From positions 248,001-312,000 of the forward strand of contig JAOAHD010000007.1 of assembly GCA_026415395.1 (NCBI GenBank): DNA of 64,000 nucleotides, read 5' to 3'. Shown piece by piece: positions 6,980 through 16,161 of the stretch; the stretch's first letter is position 1, and every line of letters begins with the position of its first letter. A model generated the notes under the pieces. The model was given only the letters and a program-made list of their open reading frames with translations. It was not told the origin of the DNA and did no database searches. Both the position numbers and the translations under genes were made by a program. This stretch comes from Candidatus Binatia bacterium. GTDB taxonomy: Bacteria > Desulfobacterota > Binatia > HRBIN30.

Positions 6980-7008
6980 TTGACGGGATTGCTTGGCTTC
7001 GATAATAG
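6980..7008 (+). promoter_or_regulatory. Candidate sigma-70-type promoter of the B12 operon
   Basis: TTGACG at 6980-6985 and TAATAG at 7003-7008 are separated by 17 bases; GATAAT at 7001-7006 gives a 15-base spacer. Transcription from here would start around 7015, right at the 5' edge of the riboswitch. Position and spacing support the call, but the -10 match is imperfect. Confidence 0.45.
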
Positions 7009-7016
7009 GTCGAGTT

Positions 7017-7166
7017 GCTGCGTGGTTAAGGGAAGCCGGTGCGAGGCCGGCGCGGCCCCCGCCACTGTAATCGGAACGAAAGCGGCAAGGATGCCACTGC
7101 CCGATTCGCTCGGGTGGGAAGGCGCCGCGAGTAGGTTGCCGAGAGCCAGGAGACCTGGCCCGCAGC
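7017..7166 (+). ncRNA. Cobalamin (B12) riboswitch aptamer
   Basis: The class-defining B12-box region GCCACTGTAATCGG lies at 7061-7074. It is preceded by GGGAAGCCGGTG, and the conserved 3' element GAGAGCCAGGAGACCTGGCC lies at 7141-7160. GCTGCG at 7017-7022 pairs perfectly with CGCAGC at 7161-7166, giving a closing P1 helix. Adenosylcobalamin-type riboswitches repress B12 uptake or synthesis genes when cobalamin is plentiful. The genes downstream encode a BtuB-like receptor, BtuF and BtuC, which fits. Confidence 0.93.
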
Positions 7167-7229
7167 GGAAAACGAGAGGTGCCTTCCGGGGTGTGAGGGC
7201 CATGCAGAATGGGTCGGAAAAAGCTCATG

Positions 7230-7260
7230 CCCGGGGCGTAAGCGCGCTGCCGGGTTTTTT
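7230..7260 (+). terminator. Intrinsic terminator, likely riboswitch expression platform
   Basis: CCCGG at 7230-7234 pairs with CCGGG at 7250-7254, enclosing a small inner GCG/CGC hairpin. Six T residues follow at 7255-7260. It lies between the aptamer and the first gene, so ligand-dependent termination is the probable control mode. The competing antiterminator helix was not resolved by eye. Confidence 0.7.
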
Positions 7261-7352
7261 GCGTGACGCCAACCGATCTGCGTGCGCCCTCGCTCATCGG
7301 CCCGGCGACAACCCGCGCTTCCGCTGGAGCGCATGACACGGGGAGGTTTGTC

Positions 7353-8738
7353 ATGCAGCAACGTTTGGTTCGTTGGTTTTGGTGTACTGGCATTGCGGCT
7401 CTGTTTTGGGCTTCTGGAGCGGCGGCTTCAGTTGTCGGTCCGCCAGACTACATCGTCGGTCAAGTCACGTTCCCGGGCGCCGCAACGGGCGACGTGGCCG
7501 TGGTGGGCACGGCGGTGTTCACCGGGCAAGGCTCATTTGGGGGTGGAACCCAATCGGTGGCGCGCCGGGACTGGGACGGCACTGTCACTACCGTGGTGGC
7601 TAACCTGAACTCGATCGGCGGGCTCGCAGGTACGCATGCGTACCTGTTCATTACCGATAATGGTGGTGAGCAAAGCGGAGCGCTGACCGGCGACACAGTG
7701 TTTGCCCTACCGAATCCCACGATTGTGTCATCGCCGGTCAGCGCCGTTGGCCTGGAAATCGATGCCCCAGGCTCGATTCCTTTTGTGCAGGGAATTGCCC
7801 TCGCCCCCGATGGCGAGCCGTACGTCGGTGACGCCGCCGGTAGCGGCAGTGGCCGTGTGTTGCGACATCGTGCGTTCGGGTACCCACCGTTCGACACGTT
7901 GTTCACGGGCTACGACTATGTTGCGGGCTTGGCGTTCGACGAGGAGGGCCGTCTGTACTTTGGCGAGCTAACGAATAGCTTCGTCGGCCGTATCTTGCGG
8001 TACGACCCGGTCACCAATACGCACGCGCTGATCGTCTCCGGTCTTTCCGGCGCGTATGATCAGGCGTTCGATCACCGCGGGCGCTTGTTGGTAACCGGAG
8101 GATTCACCAACGATTTCAGCAGCAGCACCATTGTTGCTGTGGATGAGTTGGGTAACGTCACCGAGTTTGCCCGTGGTTTTTCCTTCACCACGGGAATCGA
8201 TGTCGATCCGATCTCAGGGCGCGTGTACGTTGTCGACTTCGGCTCCGCCGATGTCACGACCTTCACCCCTCTCGACCGCCTGGTTGGCGGTGGCGGCGTG
8301 GCGAGCCGTGATTGCATGAGCGAATTTTCTGATGTTGTGCCGTTGCTCAACCGCAAGGGCCAACCCACTTCCAAATCTGAGTGCCGCGATGGCGACGCGT
8401 GCGATCGCGACGGTGCTGCGAACGGCACCTGTACCTTCGCCGTGGGTGTATGTATGCGCGTACCCCGGACAGGCTGCACGGTGCCGGGTTTGGCAAGCAT
8501 CGAGATCGCGCAGCCGGGTCAGGCTGCTTTAGACACCAGTGTGCAGACGCTCTTAGCAGCAGCCCAGGCGAACTTGGGCGGTACTGGTCCGGTGTGTGTC
8601 GGACCTGTTCCCGTGCAGGTGCCGCTGGTCTCCACGCCGCGAGGTTTGCGGCCGGGACGCAAGGCCCTGCGAGTCCGCGTGCGGGACGCTGCGCAAAGGA
8701 CGGACATAGATCGGTTGACGTTGCGGTGCCTACCATAA
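7353..8738 (+). CDS. Secreted NHL/SMP30-like beta-propeller protein, first gene of the B12 operon
   Basis: A 461-residue secreted protein. A signal peptide (RLVRWFWCTGIAALFWASGAAA) is followed by a propeller-like region with repeats such as GIALAPDGEPYVGD and GLAFDEEGRLYFGE. From residue 320 there is a separate Cys-containing module ending in RPGRKALRVRVRD and DRLTLRCLP. That module recurs in the 968-residue protein at 50762-53668. The start is the ATG at 7353, with GGGAGG six bases upstream; the frame is open further 5' but runs into the leader. Being directly behind the B12 riboswitch, it probably serves cobalamin capture or acts at the cell surface. That role is inferred from context only. 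Confidence 0.8.
   Translation: MQQRLVRWFWCTGIAALFWASGAAASVVGPPDYIVGQVTFPGAATGDVAVVGTAVFTGQGSFGGGTQSVARRDWDGTVTTVVANLNSIGGLAGTHAYLFITDNGGEQSGALTGDTVFALPNPTIVSSPVSAVGLEIDAPGSIPFVQGIALAPDGEPYVGDAAGSGSGRVLRHRAFGYPPFDTLFTGYDYVAGLAFDEEGRLYFGELTNSFVGRILRYDPVTNTHALIVSGLSGAYDQAFDHRGRLLVTGGFTNDFSSSTIVAVDELGNVTEFARGFSFTTGIDVDPISGRVYVVDFGSADVTTFTPLDRLVGGGGVASRDCMSEFSDVVPLLNRKGQPTSKSECRDGDACDRDGAANGTCTFAVGVCMRVPRTGCTVPGLASIEIAQPGQAALDTSVQTLLAAAQANLGGTGPVCVGPVPVQVPLVSTPRGLRPGRKALRVRVRDAAQRTDIDRLTLRCLP
8310..8735 (+). other. Cys-rich C-terminal module shared with the 968-residue secreted protein
   Basis: Residues 320-461 of the preceding protein start at DCMSEF. They contain CRDGDACDRDG, NGTCTFAVGVC and GPVPVQVPL, and end with LRPGRKALRVRV and LTLRCLP. 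The same order of motifs (CYEGDPRCDID, NSCTIPVQLC, APVAVVVPL, IRPGTRTLRVIA, LKIQCLP) occurs at 52985-53509. The module is therefore mobile between architectures. I do not know a named family for it. Confidence 0.6.
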
Positions 8739-8775
8739 GTGGCGGCTTGCCGCCCGTGGAAACGCGCTGGCGAGC

Positions 8776-9756
8776 ATGAACCCACCTGTCTGTCGCGTCG
8801 TGGCGGCGTGCCGACCAGCGGGGGTGCGCTGCCACGCGCGCCGGCGGTGGTGGTTGTTCGTGGTACCCATCTTCGTTGCGCTGGTTCCGAACACTGGCTG
8901 GGCGGGCCCGTTTGCGGATGCGGTGGTTGCTTTTCGCCCAGGAGCGGGAGCAGGCTACGGACAAGACCGACTTCCTGAAGTGGTCCTCGGCCCACCACAC
9001 GGCGGTGGGCTGCTCGAGGGTTCGCTCGATGTCGTATCGCTCGGACACGGCGGCGAGATCGTGTTGCGCTTCGATCCGCCAGTGGCGTGCGACGGCCCGG
9101 GGCCGGATCTCTTGGTGTTCGAGAACGCGTTCCATGTTGGATCAGCAACCGGACCAGTGTTCGCCGAGCTCGCCTTTGTCGCCGTGAGCCAAGATGGCGT
9201 GCACTTTCGCGAGTTTCCCTGGAATGCGCAGACTTGGGACGGTTTAGCCGGCAAGACCCCGGTATTAAGCAATCCCGAAAACGGCATCGATCCGCGCGAT
9301 CCAAGCGTAGCCGGTGGCGATGCCTTCGATTTGGCACAAGTCGGCTTGGAGTGGATCCGCTTTGTGCGCATCACCGACGTCGGCAACTTAATTGACGATC
9401 CGGGCAACCGCTTGCCCGGGGGAGGCACCGCAGGTTTCGATTTAGATGCGGTTGCGGCAGTATATCCCTGCACTCCGGAGACAGCGGCGAGTCCCTCGCC
9501 CACGCCGTCCCTGAACGCAACGCCAACGGCCACGCCGACACCTTCGACCACGCCGACGCCCACGGCCACACCGCAGCCTCCGCCGACTAGCTCGCCAACG
9601 GCGATGTGCCCGATCGCAGAGGCACTGTGGAATGCGTTGTTCGAGAGCTCGGTGGCTGCCGACTGGAACGACGATGGCAGGCTATCGGTGGCCGACCTTG
9701 TGGCAGCGCTGCGTCAGGACGCGTGTAGCCAGAGGGCTGCGCCGACGAGATTTTAG
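8776..9756 (+). CDS. Secreted cell-surface protein with Thr/Pro linker and EF-hand-like C-terminus
   Basis: A 326-residue protein. A basic stretch and hydrophobic segment (RRRWWLFVVPIFVALVPNTGWA, about 22-43) look like a signal peptide. The main domain (about 44-231) begins with VVAFRPGAGAGYG and contains DLLVFENAF and FDLDAVAAV. This resembles uncharacterised cell-surface proteins that I recall seeing next to B12-type TonB receptors. A Thr/Pro/Ser linker spans about 237-276. It ends with one EF-hand-like loop, DWNDDGRLSVAD (296-307), similar to half a dockerin. The start codon has no clear ribosome site. It lies between the propeller gene and the receptor gene in the riboswitch operon. Confidence 0.72.
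   Translation: MNPPVCRVVAACRPAGVRCHARRRWWLFVVPIFVALVPNTGWAGPFADAVVAFRPGAGAGYGQDRLPEVVLGPPHGGGLLEGSLDVVSLGHGGEIVLRFDPPVACDGPGPDLLVFENAFHVGSATGPVFAELAFVAVSQDGVHFREFPWNAQTWDGLAGKTPVLSNPENGIDPRDPSVAGGDAFDLAQVGLEWIRFVRITDVGNLIDDPGNRLPGGGTAGFDLDAVAAVYPCTPETAASPSPTPSLNATPTATPTPSTTPTPTATPQPPPTSSPTAMCPIAEALWNALFESSVAADWNDDGRLSVADLVAALRQDACSQRAAPTRF
9484..9603 (+). repeat. Thr/Pro/Ser-rich linker repeats
   Basis: The DNA repeats short ACGCCGACG-like units that encode PTPTATPTPS-type sequence for about 40 residues. Such stretches act as extended linkers, often glycosylated, that hold surface domains away from the envelope. Confidence 0.7.
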
Positions 9757-9774
9757 GCAGGGGAGTGCGCGGCG

Positions 9775-11808
9775 GTGTGGAGAAGAGTCGAGGTTGGGGT
9801 GTTGCTCCTTGTGAGCAGCGTACTCGGAGGCCTCGCTCGTGTCGGTGCCGTTGCTCGCGCGGAAATCCACGAAAGAATTACCGTACGAGCCTCTCCCCTT
9901 GCGGAAGGCCGCGCGCATGCTCCGACCGCGTTTGTCAACTCTGTGGAGACGGAGCGGTACGCTGACGAGCTCGAAAGCGTAACGGATGCCGTGGCAGACA
10001 CCGTGGGCGTCAGCGTGCGCCGCTACGGCGGACTCGGGGCCTTTAGCACCTTGTCTATTCGTGGCTCCGGGGCGAACGAAGTGCAGGTGTATTTCGATGG
10101 CATTCCCCTTTCGCGGGCACAAAACGAAGTGGTCAACCTAGCGGACCTCCCGCTCGATAGCCTCGAGCGCATCGACATCTACCGCGGTACCACGCCAGTC
10201 AACTTCGGCGTGGCTGGCATTGGGGGTACCGTGAACCTGATCCCGAAGAAGCCGACCGACACGCCGTACCGGCAAGCAACGCTCGGGTACGGGTCGTTTA
10301 CGACTCGAAAAGCGAGCGGTACGATCGTGGAACGGGTGGGCAAGTTTCAGTTGTTCGGGAACGTTGCGTATCTCGGGAGCGCGGGGAATTTTCGCTTTCG
10401 CAGCGACAACGACACTCCTTTCAATCCTCTCGACGACCGCGACGCAACACGGGTGCACAACTCCTTTGACAGTGTCTCGATGCTTTGGCGGGCGCGCCGA
10501 GAGTGGGATACGGGCAGGTGGGCTGATGTGTTGCAGGAGCTGTTTTGGAAGGAGAACGACTTACCCGGCCGTGGCGCCAACCCATCGCTGCATGCTTGGG
10601 CGGGCCGGCTTCGGCTCTTGCAAGCTGCGCGCGGCCGTGCGGCGGCTTGGCCGGCGTCGTCGATCGATACCGAAGGTCAAGTGTTTTTCGTTTTCGATCG
10701 GTCGCACTTCCGCGACCCCTTCGGCGAGCTAGGTGCCGGGCAGCAGAATCGCCGAGACGATTCCTGGCTCGTCGGTGCCAATACGACAACGACGGTCTAC
10801 GCTTCCTACACGCAAACGCTTTCGGCGTTTCTGGAGGGAACGCGCGAAGAGTTTGTGCCGGAGAATACGGCCGTGCGTGCTCCGCGCGAGCCCAACGCTG
10901 TGCGCTGGCGGCTTGCGCCCGTGTTCCAGCATCAATGGGAGTTGTGGCGAGCTGCCGTCTTGCTTGTTCCCACGATGCGTGTCGAATGGGTGTACGACCG
11001 CTCCGACGGCGCCTGGCAAAGCTTCGGGCGCGTGATTCCGCCTTTAGAGCGCGAGACCAGGCTGTGGAGCCCGAGCATCGGTGCAGAGTGGCGGTTGGCG
11101 GCCGGCTTGGTGCTGCGTGGAAACTTAGGTCGTTATGGGCGCACGCCGAATTTCACAGAGCTCTTCGGCAACACCGGCAGTGTGATCGGCAACCCGGAGT
11201 TGCGCTCGGAGCAGGCGTGGAATCGCGACATTGGGTTCCGTTGGCAACGCAACTTTTCCGCCCACGACCTTTCTCTCCAGAGTGAGTATGCGTATTTCAA
11301 CAACGACGTCGAGCGCTTGATCGTGTTCGTGCAGCGCTCCGCCGCGATCTTCAAGCCGGAAAACGTTGGCCGAGCGCGACTCCGCGGTCATGAGGCAGGG
11401 TTGCGTCTGGACTGGCGGAAGCAGCTCCTCATCGATGCCAATTACACCTGGCAGGAGCCAGAAAACCGCAGCTCGGTGCTCGGAGGCATTTACCTTGGGA
11501 AACGACTTCCGGGGCGTCCGCAACACGAACTGTACACGCGGGTCGGCCTATCGCTCGGTCCGGTGTCACCGTTCTTCGAGTTCAACTATGTCAGCGGAAA
11601 CTTCCTCGACCAGGCCAACTACGACGCTGTACCGGCGCGCACGGTGCATAACCTCGGCCTCAAGTGCGAGTTGCCATATGGGTTCCGGGCCACGCTGCAG
11701 TTGCGCAATGCAACCGATAACCAAATTTCGGACGTTGCCGGTTTCCCGCTGCCTGGCCGCGCGATCCTCGCGACGGTGACCTGGAACCTCTCAGGGAGCA
11801 GACAATGA
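9775..11808 (+). CDS. btuB: TonB-dependent receptor, BtuB-like
   Basis: A 677-residue outer-membrane receptor. It starts at GTG 9775, with AGGGGAG upstream, and has a signal peptide ending near ARA. ERITV just after the signal may be the TonB box. The plug domain is recognisable: VRRYGGLGAFSTLSIRGSGANEV, then VYFDGIPLSRA, LPLDSLERIDIYRG and IGGTVNLIPK. The rest is a beta-barrel rich in aromatic and alternating residues, with a typical late motif RNATDNQISDVAGFPLPGR. The riboswitch and the downstream btuF and btuC point to cobalamin as substrate. The stop overlaps the next start as ATGA. Confidence 0.88.
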   Translation: MWRRVEVGVLLLVSSVLGGLARVGAVARAEIHERITVRASPLAEGRAHAPTAFVNSVETERYADELESVTDAVADTVGVSVRRYGGLGAFSTLSIRGSGANEVQVYFDGIPLSRAQNEVVNLADLPLDSLERIDIYRGTTPVNFGVAGIGGTVNLIPKKPTDTPYRQATLGYGSFTTRKASGTIVERVGKFQLFGNVAYLGSAGNFRFRSDNDTPFNPLDDRDATRVHNSFDSVSMLWRARREWDTGRWADVLQELFWKENDLPGRGANPSLHAWAGRLRLLQAARGRAAAWPASSIDTEGQVFFVFDRSHFRDPFGELGAGQQNRRDDSWLVGANTTTTVYASYTQTLSAFLEGTREEFVPENTAVRAPREPNAVRWRLAPVFQHQWELWRAAVLLVPTMRVEWVYDRSDGAWQSFGRVIPPLERETRLWSPSIGAEWRLAAGLVLRGNLGRYGRTPNFTELFGNTGSVIGNPELRSEQAWNRDIGFRWQRNFSAHDLSLQSEYAYFNNDVERLIVFVQRSAAIFKPENVGRARLRGHEAGLRLDWRKQLLIDANYTWQEPENRSSVLGGIYLGKRLPGRPQHELYTRVGLSLGPVSPFFEFNYVSGNFLDQANYDAVPARTVHNLGLKCELPYGFRATLQLRNATDNQISDVAGFPLPGRAILATVTWNLSGSRQ

Positions 11809-13094
11809 ACAAGGACCACGGTTGCCAACTTCTCTGGGCATGGGCGCTGTGTGTGTTCCTCGAAGCCGCATGCTTCGCGGCTGCAGTGCCCGCGGCGCCA
11901 GTGCTGCCGGGAGACTGCAATGTGGACGACAGTGTTACGGTCGATGAAGTGATCCAGCTCGTTCGCATCGGCTTAGGTGAAGCGGAACTGCGCGACTGCC
12001 CAGCGGGAGACGGGAATCGTGACGGGGTGGTCACGATCGAGGAAATCGTGGCTGCTGTGCAAGAGTTGCTCACCGCCCCGGCGCTGCCTCCCGTTGCGTT
12101 CGTGACGGCAACGGACTTTCAAACCGGGGGCTTCGCTTTGGTCGATGCAGAACCCCCGTTTGCCGTCCAGCCGACCACTCCCGCCCGCCGCCTCGGGGCT
12201 GATCCGGTGGCTCGGGTGTTTGGTCGCCGGGTGTATGTGGTCAACCGCTTCGGCAGCGATAATTTGCAAGTCCTTGATGCGGCTGGTGGATTCCGCAGCG
12301 TCGTGCAGTGTTCGACCGGCAACGGTTCGAATCCGCAGGACATTGCGTTTCGTACGGGCGTAGTGGCCTACATGCCCTTGCTTGCGCGGCCATGGGTTCT
12401 CAAGGTTAATCCCCATCCAGCGTCGGATTGCAGTGACTTTGTTCTCGGCCAAATTGACCTGCGTGCGTTCGTTGATGCTGACGGGAGTCCGGAGGCCAAC
12501 CAAGCGGCGGTTGTGGGCGAGCGCTTGTTTGTCACTCTTGAACGTTTGGAAAACTTCTCCCCGGTGCGGAACGGGACGCTTGTGGTGGTCGATACCCGCA
12601 CCGATGAGGTCACAGGGGCTGTGGAGCTGAGTGCGCCGAATCCGTTCGGCATGACCAAGGGGCTCACGGTCCGTGGCGATTCGCTGTACGTTTCCCTCGT
12701 GGGGCAGTTCGGAGTTGCCGATGGTGGGATCGAGGCTGTGAACTTGGAGACCTTGCGCGCTTCGGGTTTGCTGCTGAACGAAGAGGAATTGGGCGGGGAT
12801 GTGACGGATTTCGTCTTAGTCGACGAGGATTTGGGTTACGCGATTATCTCCCGGCCGGATTTTGCCACAAGCCTGGTACGCTTTAGCTTGCGGCGCCGCC
12901 AGGTGGAGACGATCGTACCGGCAAGCGATGGCTTGTCCGATATCGAGGCCAGCAATCGCGGGTATCTGTTCCTCACCGACCGTAATCTGCACCGTCCTGG
13001 CGTGCGGGTGTTTCGCACCTTCGATGGTGTAGAGCTGACACCGGCACCGCTGTTCACCGGTTTGCCACCCTTCGACCTGGTGTTTCTCCAGTGA
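11805..13094 (+). CDS. Secreted beta-propeller protein with N-terminal dockerin-like EF-hand pair (possible BtuG analogue)
   Basis: A 429-residue protein with a signal peptide. Two EF-hand-type loops follow: DCNVDDSVTVDE (37-48) and DGNRDGVVTIEE (69-80), each with the D-x-N-x-D pattern of type I dockerins. From about residue 95 the rest is YncE-like propeller sequence: RRVYVVNRFGSDNLQVLD, GTLVVVDTRTDEV, GLTVRGDSLYVS. The start overlaps the btuB stop by four bases and the stop overlaps the btuF start, so it is translated within the B12 uptake unit. In Bacteroides, the surface propeller BtuG sits beside BtuB and captures B12. Analogy to BtuG is inference from architecture and position, not demonstrated homology. 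Confidence 0.75.
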   Translation: MNKDHGCQLLWAWALCVFLEAACFAAAVPAAPVLPGDCNVDDSVTVDEVIQLVRIGLGEAELRDCPAGDGNRDGVVTIEEIVAAVQELLTAPALPPVAFVTATDFQTGGFALVDAEPPFAVQPTTPARRLGADPVARVFGRRVYVVNRFGSDNLQVLDAAGGFRSVVQCSTGNGSNPQDIAFRTGVVAYMPLLARPWVLKVNPHPASDCSDFVLGQIDLRAFVDADGSPEANQAAVVGERLFVTLERLENFSPVRNGTLVVVDTRTDEVTGAVELSAPNPFGMTKGLTVRGDSLYVSLVGQFGVADGGIEAVNLETLRASGLLLNEEELGGDVTDFVLVDEDLGYAIISRPDFATSLVRFSLRRRQVETIVPASDGLSDIEASNRGYLFLTDRNLHRPGVRVFRTFDGVELTPAPLFTGLPPFDLVFLQ

Positions 13095-13999
13095 GGCTGA
13101 CTTTGCAAAACACTCGTGCTGCTCGTGGATTGCGGTGCTTGGTTTCTGCCGCTGTTCTCGCTTGCGTGTGCTTGCTCGCAAGGGCGGGAGGCGTTGCGCG
13201 TGCCGATGGTGCGCCGCAACGCATCGTGTCGTTGGCTCCGGCGCTCACGGAGCTCGTGTTTGCATTGGGCGTCGGCGACCGCCTCGTCGGCGCCACGGCG
13301 CAGTGTGACTTCCCTCCGCAAGCGCTCACACTCCCGAGAGTGGGCACGTTTCTCTCTCCCAACGTGGAAGCGGTGCTTCATGCCCGTCCGGACATCGTGC
13401 TGGTCAGCCCGAGCCCGGGGAATCGCCGTGCGGTTGAGCAGCTCCGGAACTTGGGTTTGCGCGTGTTCGTCGTAGATCCGCAGACCGTGCAAGACCTGGC
13501 TGCAACCGTGCGCCAAGTGGGCAAGGCGTTGGGGGTCGAAGAACATGCGGATCGCCTTGCAGATCGTTTCGTTGCCTCGATAGAAGCCACGCAGCGCCTT
13601 GTTGCTAGTTGTCCCCCTCGAAAGGTGTTGTTCGTGGTTGGTCGGAACCCGCTGATTGCGGTTGGCTCTGGAACGATGCAGGATGAACTCATTCACCTGG
13701 CCGGTGGGACAAACGTGGTCCGCGCGCACGGTTGGCCAAAGGTTTCGATCGAGTCTGTTCTCCAGGCAGGCCCCGAGGTCATCATCGATGCCACAATGGG
13801 TAGTGACAGCACGAATGCAGGCGATGGGGTGGCCTTTTGGGACCAATTTCCCCTGTTGCCCGCCGTGAAAAACCGGCGTGTTGTGATTCGGGCTGACGAC
13901 CGCATCCTCCGCCCGGGTCCGCGCTTGCCGGAGGGACTGCGGGCGCTAGCAGAAGACATCCATCCGGAAGCGTTCACGAACGTGGCTCCAGCCGAGTGA
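13091..13999 (+). CDS. btuF: Periplasmic cobalamin-binding protein
   Basis: A 302-residue class III solute-binding protein. It starts at GTG 13091, giving a GTGA overlap with the previous stop. A signal peptide ends near VARADG. The characteristic BtuF opening is RIVSLAPALTELVFALG followed by GATAQCDFP, with the second lobe around PPRKVLFVVGRNPLIAVG and a helix-linker middle. It carries cobalamin from the receptor to the BtuC permease. The order propeller, btuF, btuC and the shared riboswitch support B12 over siderophore transport. Confidence 0.88.
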   Translation: MRLTLQNTRAARGLRCLVSAAVLACVCLLARAGGVARADGAPQRIVSLAPALTELVFALGVGDRLVGATAQCDFPPQALTLPRVGTFLSPNVEAVLHARPDIVLVSPSPGNRRAVEQLRNLGLRVFVVDPQTVQDLAATVRQVGKALGVEEHADRLADRFVASIEATQRLVASCPPRKVLFVVGRNPLIAVGSGTMQDELIHLAGGTNVVRAHGWPKVSIESVLQAGPEVIIDATMGSDSTNAGDGVAFWDQFPLLPAVKNRRVVIRADDRILRPGPRLPEGLRALAEDIHPEAFTNVAPAE

Positions 14000-14006
14000 C
14001 AGCACC

Positions 14007-15083
14007 ATGCACCCTGATGGCGTCGGGCCGAGCGCGTGGTCGCGCTCATGGTCGCTACCGCGGCAGAGTGAGCGCCCGTACCTGACCCGCAAACGCGTGG
14101 TCGTTGTGTTGGCCGTTCTTACGTTCACTTTGCTCGCCACTATGGTGGTTGCGGCTGTGGTGGGGAATGTGTCCTTGCATTGGAGCCAGGTGCTTTGGGG
14201 TTCCGAAGGCAGCGTCGATCGCACCATCCTTTTCGGCACGCGTTTGCCGCGCATCGCTCTGGCTGCGGTCATGGGTGCTGCACTCGGGTTGGCGGGAGCC
14301 ACATTGCAGGGGTTGCTGCGGAATCCGTTGGCCGAACCCCACTTGATTGGGGTTTCTGGGGGTGCGGCGTTAGGAGCGACGTTGGCGGTGGTGGTGGGTG
14401 GTCGGGCTGTGCTCGGGAAGATGTGGGTTTTGCCGCTCGCGGCGGCGGCAGGTGCGTTCGTGTCGGTAGCGGTACTGTACAAAATCTCGCTGATTCACGG
14501 ACGCCTGCAGCCGCATGTGCTGTTGCTGGCGGGCGTTGTTTACAATGCGTTTGCCGGCGCGGTCATTTTGTTCGTGAATTTCTTGGCCGATTTCTATCAG
14601 GCTCAAGGGCTGCTCTCGTGGTTGGTCGGCAGCGTAGCGGCCTATGGATACGATCTCGTGCTGCCGGCGGCAGCATACTGCGGGCTTGCGGGTGTGTGGT
14701 TGTGCAGCCAGGCGCGTGGCCTCGATTTATTGAGCCTTGGCGAGGAGAGTGCTTGGCAACTGGGGGCAGACGTCGAACGCGTGCGGCGCGTGGCTTTTCT
14801 CGGCTCCTCTTTGCTCGTCGGTGCTGTGGTGGCCGTGAGCGGTATGATTGGCTTTGTGGGCTTGATCGTGCCGCACACTCTGCGCGGGCTCTGTGGCGCG
14901 GATCACCGGCTGTTGCTGCCAGCGTCCGCCCTGGGAGGCGCAATCTTTCTCGTGCTGGCAGACACAGTTGCTCGAAGCTTGGTCTCTGGGGTGGAAATTC
15001 CCGTGGGCGTGGTCACTGCGCTCACCGGGGGCCCTTTCTTCTTGTACCTTTTGCGCCGAGAACAGCGGCGTTTTTACACGTAA
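14007..15083 (+). CDS. btuC: ABC transporter permease, cobalamin type
   Basis: A 358-residue FecCD/BtuC-family permease with about ten hydrophobic helices. Family motifs are TRLPRIALAAVMGAALGLAGATLQGLLRNPLAEPHLIGVSGGA in the first third and SGMIGFVGLIVPHTLR late, the coupling-helix region. The N-terminus has about 30 extra hydrophilic residues before the first helix. It lies 7 bases after btuF. The expected ATPase gene btuD does not follow; the next gene is an unrelated barrel protein. Confidence 0.9.
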   Translation: MHPDGVGPSAWSRSWSLPRQSERPYLTRKRVVVVLAVLTFTLLATMVVAAVVGNVSLHWSQVLWGSEGSVDRTILFGTRLPRIALAAVMGAALGLAGATLQGLLRNPLAEPHLIGVSGGAALGATLAVVVGGRAVLGKMWVLPLAAAAGAFVSVAVLYKISLIHGRLQPHVLLLAGVVYNAFAGAVILFVNFLADFYQAQGLLSWLVGSVAAYGYDLVLPAAAYCGLAGVWLCSQARGLDLLSLGEESAWQLGADVERVRRVAFLGSSLLVGAVVAVSGMIGFVGLIVPHTLRGLCGADHRLLLPASALGGAIFLVLADTVARSLVSGVEIPVGVVTALTGGPFFLYLLRREQRRFYT

Positions 15084-15324
15084 CGCTCGTTTTCCCAGGC
15101 CGGAAACCGAGCCGTCCGGGAAGTGTGTCGAACGCGGCTCGTCTCTGCATGGGCTGGCTGCGTTGGTCCCCCGAGCAGGGGTTCCTGTGACGGTCGTGCA
15201 TTCCAGCCACGGCGATATTTCCAGGCCGTGTCGCCTTGACACCGGCGTAGCACTTGTGGAAGCAAGGGCGCGGTAGAGCTTCTGCCAAAACGTGGCAGGC
15301 CGCGAGGGAAAGGAGGTTGGGAGC

Positions 15325-16161
15325 ATGGTCAAGCGTGTGGGGATGGCGGTGTTCGCAAGTGTGTGGCTTTTCGGGGTGGCGGCATCGGCTCAAGAAGCGC
15401 AGACGAAAGCCGCGGGAATTTCGCGCAGTTTCGATCGCTACGAACAAGAAGCCGCAGTGAGCGAGGGGTTCTGGGTCGAAGGCGCGGCTGGCGTGGTGCA
15501 GGACGTGGTCAAGGATGCCGTCGGCAACAAGACCACCAGTTCGGTGGACTTCGGTGCGCTGCGGGCGAGCTACGGGATGGACATGTTCGAAGCCGGTCTG
15601 ACATTCCCCTTCTGGCAACACTCCGAGGTGGAGGTTCGCCAGGGCTCAAATGTCCGCAGCCGCGGTGAAGAAGGCCCGGGTGACGTCTCCTTATTTGCCA
15701 AGGTGCTTCCGTTGCGCAGCGAGTATTTGGATGCGGGCGCGGGCTTGCAGGTGAGCTTCCCCACCGGCGACGAAGACAAGAACTTGGGCATCGGGGAGGT
15801 GGGAGTACTGCCGTTTGCGACGGTGGCGGCCCATCTCGCACCGTTTGCTGTGCGCGCGCACGGTGGATATCGGTTTGTCTCGGATATCACGCCCACGGCC
15901 CGCGAAGCGATCGTATACGGCGGGGGAATTTTTTACATGTGGAACGAACAGCTTGCCCTGCGCTCGGAGATCAACGGGGCGATTGTGGATGTTCCCGGCA
16001 AAGAGAACTTTGACTTGATCCTGTGGCAACCCGGCGTGGACGTTCGACTGCCGATGGGTGGCTACGACATTTTGCTTCGACCCACCGGGACTTACGGAAT
16101 TAACGAGGAGTCCCCAGATTGGGGCTTTGGCGGTTCGATCACCGTGTGGGCGAGGCCGTAA
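15325..16161 (+). CDS. Predicted outer-membrane beta-barrel protein
   Basis: A 278-residue protein with a clear signal peptide (GMAVFASVWLFGVAASAQ). It has alternating polar/apolar strands with phrases such as EAGLTFPFWQ, GPGDVSLFAKVLPL and GAGLQVSFPTGDEDKNLGIGEVGVLPF, seen in uncharacterised transporter-like outer-membrane barrels. The start is ATG 15325, with AGGAGG eight bases upstream. It follows the B12 operon after about 240 bases without a gene and may be its own unit. Its function is unknown. Confidence 0.65.
   Translation: MVKRVGMAVFASVWLFGVAASAQEAQTKAAGISRSFDRYEQEAAVSEGFWVEGAAGVVQDVVKDAVGNKTTSSVDFGALRASYGMDMFEAGLTFPFWQHSEVEVRQGSNVRSRGEEGPGDVSLFAKVLPLRSEYLDAGAGLQVSFPTGDEDKNLGIGEVGVLPFATVAAHLAPFAVRAHGGYRFVSDITPTAREAIVYGGGIFYMWNEQLALRSEINGAIVDVPGKENFDLILWQPGVDVRLPMGGYDILLRPTGTYGINEESPDWGFGGSITVWARP

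Follow-up and report, generated by a model that had tools for sequence, protein, structure and literature searches.

The stretch analyzed here, called the window throughout, comprises 64,000 nucleotides of contig JAOAHD010000007.1 from a Candidatus Binatia bacterium and carries, behind a vitamin B12 (cobalamin) riboswitch, an operon of six genes that probably encodes a B12-scavenging system with BtuG/BtuH-like capture, in a host that is a probable B12 nonproducer. Three of the six gene products, here named P0001, P0002, and P0004, are secreted proteins, and the remaining ones resemble the components of a B12 import route. The features on which this reading is built are as follows, in coordinates of the window.

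6990–7177, plus strand: aptamer of a cobalamin riboswitch (RF00174; 91.6 bits, with the gathering score at 31.5; expectation value (E) 2.1e-21)
7229–7260, plus strand: probable terminator hairpin with a run of six T after it (expression platform), from the fold and from recurrence seen by eye
7353–8738, plus strand: P0001, secreted, an NHL-type propeller (residues ~27–300) with a class-wide C-terminal module (~300–461), from profile matches and distribution
8776–9756, plus strand: P0002, secreted, with a BtuH-like domain, a PT-rich linker, and one dockerin-like loop, from the model and from fold and profile matches (8blw_B)
8905–9474, plus strand: BtuH-like core of P0002, residues 44–233, including Asn117 and Phe119, both invariant in the alignments
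9775–11808, plus strand: TonB-dependent receptor (P0003), BtuB by context, with Pfam plug and barrel
11805–13094, plus strand: P0004, secreted, an EF-hand pair followed by a BtuG-like propeller, from model and profile
11901–12080, plus strand: EF-hand/dockerin-like pair of P0004, one of the 55 such places in its own genome
12096–13091, plus strand: BtuG-like propeller of P0004, for which BtuG entries rank top
13091–13999, plus strand: periplasmic binding protein, BtuF-like (Peripla_BP_2; NF002894 BtuF, 130.9 bits of 234)
14007–15083, plus strand: ATP-binding cassette (ABC) permease, BtuC-like (FecCD; best-scoring model NF007081 BtuC, 243.4 bits of 461)

The first-pass annotation of this region had described a cobalamin riboswitch and six plus-strand genes arranged as one unit, and this description held. 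The aptamer, which starts 27 bases before position 7017 and is the single RF00174 match in the 3.69-Mb genome (Rfam search, E ≤ 0.001), is followed by the genes for P0001, P0002, the btuB-like receptor, P0004, and the btuF-like and btuC-like proteins, in this order and with intergenic gaps of 37, 18, −4, −4, and 7 bases. In the leader, the segment 7222–7262 folds with −18.7 kcal/mol, a value equalled or bettered by 8 of 200 shuffled sequences (z −1.83); a consensus terminator scan did not list the hairpin at 7229–7260. Because a hairpin with a T-run is present in 7 of the 12 leaders inspected by eye, the window's own among the 12, a riboswitch acting through transcription termination is likely in this lineage.

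One indication of the capture mode comes from P0004, whose propeller region was aligned with 21 relatives and whose structure was predicted with a local distance difference test score (pLDDT) of 92.4. The top 14 Foldseek matches of the model were all BtuG chains, and VIA-align 2 likewise placed 11 BtuG entries at the top (Z 31.7–29.7, root-mean-square deviation (rmsd) 2.5–2.7, 295–299 residues aligned, 16–19% identity), with BtuK1, a B12-binding protein of Bacteroides, at rank 27. At the profile level, with matches accepted up to E 10, the P0004 family matched nine different PDB sequences, the best of them at E 0.001; title or paper identifies seven as BtuG, the other two (8puj and 8baz) being named only YncE family protein or surface layer protein; used as single sequences against PDB, both P0004 and P0002 gave nothing useful (maltose-binding fusions and TolB). 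P0004 shares with BtuG1/2/3 of Bacteroides thetaiotaomicron the nearest fold, judged as nearness to the seven-bladed BtuG propeller by ranking and not by counting blades, together with a gene that adjoins that of the receptor and is controlled by a B12 riboswitch. It differs in having a host outside Bacteroidetes, in the low identity given above, and in its N-terminus, where a signal peptide is followed by the EF-hand pair at the position of the BtuG lipobox (by eye). The lipobox cysteine is stated to be present in nearly all BtuG homologues (PMC6143338), and because P0004 does not have it, the protein is termed BtuG-like and not BtuG; several of its relatives carry a lipobox-like cysteine in place of the EF-hand pair (by eye). 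Judging from the predicted structure, P0004 is a likely BtuG relative.

A similar result was obtained for P0002, the core of which (residues 44–233) was aligned with 30 relatives and modeled with a pLDDT of 94.1. VIA-align 2 matched this core to BtuH2 (7biz) at Z 14.0 (rmsd 2.6, 149 residues aligned, 21% identity) and to BtuG1, including its BtuH domain, at Z 13.6, the next structure being a CBM32 at Z 9.6, and the sole Foldseek match at E ≤ 0.001 was BtuG1 (E 9.6e-5, template-modeling score 0.51 by query length), a protein whose C-terminus is reported as homologous to BtuH2 (PMC10404256). In BtuH2, Asn399 is described as contacting the phosphate of B12 and Phe401 its lower ligand (PMC8941943). 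By an alignment chain that runs from YDFCVQGNAF in 7biz through YDFRILGNAS in BtuG1 to DltvFENaF in the P0002 family, these two nucleotide-loop residues align with Asn117 and Phe119 of P0002, the identification of the motif with positions 399 and 401 being deduced from how long the 7biz construct is and how far apart the two residues lie. The Asn-x-Phe motif is invariant, occurring in 31 of 31 sequences of one alignment (A1) and in 40 of 40 across phyla (A5). P0002 has in common with BtuH2 and with the BtuH domain of BtuG1 the fold of a B12-binding domain, the Asn-x-Phe of the B12 contact, and a B12 locus, and it differs from them by the lack of PKD domains, by a C-terminal dockerin-like tail, and by a mature N-terminus that shows no lipobox (by eye). 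The model makes P0002 a likely BtuH relative. The first-pass annotation had regarded the three secreted proteins as an independent surface set for B12 capture or relay; comparison with BtuG and BtuH revealed the resemblance for P0004 and P0002, each nearest to its namesake among solved structures, and so favors the capture set, while its independence from the Bacteroides system is not supported, as two members look like relatives of BtuG and BtuH.

Further support was provided by the setting of these genes in other genomes. Among 58 genomes of the class, the window's own included, the P0002 domain was found in 30 (match rows at E < 1e-19; weaker rows lie mostly in the linker and tail), and in 25 of the 30 it is preceded, on the same strand and contig, by a B12 riboswitch; in the remaining five (G014, G027, G037, G050, and G054) the contig stops short of the operon start. 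The domain also occurs in the named collection, in records whose titles include the names Myxococcales, Polyangiaceae, Planctomycetes, KSB1, WOR-3, Sumerlaeaceae, and Hydrogenedens and in further ones. This collection gave at least 404 related stretches, the best 79 loci of which were kept, and Rfam detected an upstream riboswitch on the same strand in 22 of 28 of these loci. The 28 were picked by hand and not at random, and consist of 10 loci positive in a pattern scan, all of them confirmed, and 18 others, 12 of them positive. The scan itself, based on regular expressions, found the riboswitch in 13 of the 79 loci and in none of 79 shuffled ones and missed other lineages, and an Rfam search with 1.5-kb flanks, which were too short, returned one switch in 30 loci. 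The same genes are thus found behind B12 riboswitches elsewhere, in line with the earlier proposal.

Neighboring genes were checked by tblastn, by lists of reading frames, and partly by Pfam; long antisense frames misled a simple gene caller in this GC-rich DNA. P0004 shares its locus with the receptor in 19 of 23 loci (15/16 and 4/7 in two tblastn sets), the misses being L054 and L148, each located where a contig ends, L145, in which the receptor match is weak, and L150. In some genomes (e.g., G007, G044, and G052) the P0001–P0002 pair and the receptor–P0004 pair have separate riboswitch loci, and therefore the window joins two units.

The physiology of the host is consistent with B12 uptake. 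The genome encodes the B12-dependent MetH (1213 bits against a cut-off of 1011), and CobQ did not rise over its cut-off (best 27.6 against 309.9 bits) in an assembly that is 95.8% complete and in which the other synthesis steps were not searched; 7 of 14 control genomes passed the CobQ cut-off. The presence of MetH together with CobQ under its cut-off suggests that the host depends on external B12 and probably cannot make it.

The Bacteroides receptor BtuB is capped by BtuG, and a loading function has been proposed for BtuH (PMC10404256). The roles of P0002, P0004, and the BtuFCD components are assigned by likeness to this system, and the scheme adds to what was computed (the operon, the riboswitch, the predicted folds with their nearest solved structures, the two conserved contact residues, and the recurring gene order) a ligand, a surface location, a hand-over, and a part for P0001, all of which we infer. 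When cellular cobalamin is low, the riboswitch would permit transcription to continue. P0002 would then catch cobamides outside the cell, and P0004 would keep them above the mouth of the BtuB-like receptor and pass them on, with import presumably completed by BtuF, BtuC, and a BtuD-like ATPase encoded elsewhere. No ATPase gene lies within the six-gene operon; a BtuD-like frame on contig C2 is 62% identical to the ATPase from the operon of a relative. P0001, co-produced with P0002, probably acts as an additional capture or scaffold protein.

The two beta-propellers noticed in the first-pass annotation are now accounted for, P0004 by its model and P0001 by its profile. The latter gave designed "Pizza" propellers as top PDB matches (E down to 1.1e-16) and PknD at E 3.5e-10; the single sequence gave weak propeller matches only. 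P0001 also resembles ScyD/ScyE, matching NF033206 at E 6.4e-15, with the difference that its 55.5 bits are under the cut-off of 80 and that it occurs in another setting and with another C-terminal module. P0001 is not termed BtuG-like here, as its profile showed no clear relationship to that of P0004 (probability 14.7%), and no link to any known B12 protein emerged from its profile comparisons. Its propeller part, counted as match rows starting before residue 100, is present in 27 copies in 25 of the 58 class genomes, and every copy adjoins a P0002 relative, bar one in G025 that lies directly behind a B12 riboswitch. This copy (L147:15047–16339; G025:C43, minus strand) stands behind a second B12 riboswitch, in a locus with no P0002 match. 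The propeller was unmatched in 5 of the 30 P0002-bearing genomes, namely G009, G013, G014, G047, and G050 (G050 has just a fragment of it, where a contig stops); two of the five, G009 and G013, have a second P0004-type copy before P0002. The C-terminal part (residues ~300–461, window 8252–8735) is a separate module with a CxDGDxCDxDG-type motif, shared by many long frames of the class that are otherwise unrelated, and perhaps serves for surface attachment.

Several observations weigh against a BtuG/BtuH-like B12 capture system. Propellers are alike, and because 979 of 981 chains reach Z 8 against P0004 in VIA-align 2, the ranking outweighs the Z values; in this ranking an archaeal surface-layer propeller comes next at Z 28.8, tied with the lowest BtuG rows, before the values fall to 26.9 and less. 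The sequence support is weak, the P0004 family profile reaching E 0.001 at best and the P0002 family profiles matching the BtuH domain of BtuG1 (8blw_B) at E 0.05–0.06, a match that the broader A5 profile did not strengthen (E 0.064). The stronger and indeed top PDB match of the A1 profile, cartilage oligomeric matrix protein (E 0.0015), was discarded as it hits the calcium-repeat tails of some relatives and not the core. On the structural side, 7biz is absent from the best 50 Foldseek rows for the P0002 core, and BtuG1 retains the Asn of the motif and not the Phe. The contact comparison covers two residues of BtuH2, Asn399 and Phe401, whose contacts to B12 also include Gln333, His476, Tyr510, Trp511, and Trp577. 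Rfam found no riboswitch in 6 of the 28 named loci (L083, L111, L117, L122, L124, and L140), and the role given to P0001 rests solely on its gene company. Finally, because P0002 and P0004 are without the lipid anchor of BtuG and BtuH, their retention at the surface is left without an explanation.

One more point of this kind raises a different possibility, in which what P0001 and P0002 serve is cobalt or some other metal and not cobamides. In some relatives the P0001–P0002 pair adjoins a ZnuABC-like transporter and not btuB: genes for ZnuA, an ABC ATPase, and an ABC-3 permease follow on the same strand in L051:10361–15041, L052:10536–15054, and L055:1461–6143, and all or some of them are close by on the opposite strand in L056, L058, and L059, with ZnuA and ABC-3 confirmed by Pfam. 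L055 shows no riboswitch, its contig starting inside P0001. B12 riboswitches often control cobalt transporters, and the Znu-type neighbors are perhaps a B12-controlled cobalt or zinc transporter. A metal as the substrate of P0001 and P0002 is nevertheless unlikely, given that the receptor belongs to the same locus both in the window and in a further 15 cases and that the P0002 fold best matches BtuH and retains two B12-contact residues. Still less weight is given to the view that P0002 and P0004 have only the folds of BtuH and BtuG in common with them and that what they bind is another receptor substrate, as ferrichrome is bound by the propeller XusB of Bacteroides fragilis. Propellers and jelly rolls are common folds, the identities are low (14–23%), XusB–ferrichrome structures rank 16–19 for P0004 in Foldseek, and the top model of the receptor at 9775–11808 is the siderophore-receptor model MxcH (140.9 of 925 bits), below all cut-offs as is TIGR01779 (106.1 of 599.7). 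This view appears quite unlikely against a B12 riboswitch that controls the genes in many genomes, BtuF- and BtuC-type genes that follow in the operon, and BtuG and BtuH structures that outrank others; the receptor, BtuF-like, and BtuC-like proteins do not reach the curated cut-offs of the B12 models, and their assignment comes partly from context.

The first-pass annotation had also raised the possibility that calcium-binding modules hold the set together; in the form considered here, the three proteins would be joined in one complex in the cohesin–dockerin manner. The EF-hand/dockerin-like loops themselves were seen again by eye in two proteins, as a pair in P0004 (residues ~33–92) and as one loop near the C-terminus of P0002, and Pfam gave EF-hand_1 for P0004 only, at E 0.11 and below cut-off. 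One cohesin match over the cut-off exists in the genome (29.3 bits); it lies at L152 (G000:C16:25712–25966), in a 774-aa frame that seemingly has an EF-hand pair too. Such docking is most improbable, however, and the module as holder of the set is not supported, because the EF-hand pair is found at 55 places in the genome, that of P0004 included, and tails are exchanged among relatives, which lack the module or have in its place a lipobox-like cysteine, thrombospondin-type repeats, or some other tail (by eye). In addition, P0001 is without such a module, and Dockerin_1 matched no protein of the window and 1 of 22 P0004 relatives (E ≤ 0.01).

BtuG-type capture by P0002 and P0004 would bear on the distribution of this system. 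BtuG homologues were called exclusive to Bacteroidetes after 313 gut strains had been searched with BlastP, and the discoverers of BtuG asked what drove Bacteroidetes, unlike other phyla, to add this protein (PMC6143338). No report of BtuG or BtuH relatives outside Bacteroidetes was found in one open-licence library, judged mostly from listings. The results suggest that BtuG/BtuH-type B12 capture is more widespread than thought, the new element being the same capture principle in other phyla, with other anchoring and one extra protein. As B12 riboswitches of other phyla also have likely relatives behind them, this becomes a testable evolutionary question, and P0001 offers a concrete candidate for a new B12-capture protein. 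A bolder and less certain reading is that the BtuG/BtuH pair, instead of being peculiar to Bacteroides, could be an old or widely exchanged B12-capture system that free-living bacteria of this class, Myxococcota, and other groups have in common, here displayed via calcium-binding modules that replace the lipid anchor, and accompanied by P0001 as a third capture protein from a family not previously described as a B12 binder.

Two described families come close to P0002. DUF4465/BtuJ is, like P0002, reported as a secreted jelly-roll-type protein from B12 loci (PMC13398666); P0002 differs in that it matches no Pfam family up to E 1, its core being unmatched in all members scanned, and BtuJ is absent among the 50 rows listed for its model, beyond which a BtuJ match may lie. 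All 40 sequences in the P0002 alignment match the LIC_13355 family lipoprotein model (NF033170) at E ≤ 0.01, with the difference that the core of P0002 from the window scores 36.4 of 120 bits. The account of LIC_13355 in the relevant part of PMC11891782 is that of a laminin- and plasminogen-binding lipoprotein, with B12 not mentioned there; it may be a BtuH-like protein. On the predicted model, the P0002 core looks like a widespread B12-binding domain, and if it binds B12, a function is suggested for many unnamed surface proteins, lipoproteins of the LIC_13355 type included.

The gene after the operon, which may or may not be a member of it, begins 208 bases past the permease (15292–16161, plus strand) and encodes an outer-membrane-type protein that matches Phenol_MetA_deg below the threshold (E 0.0013).

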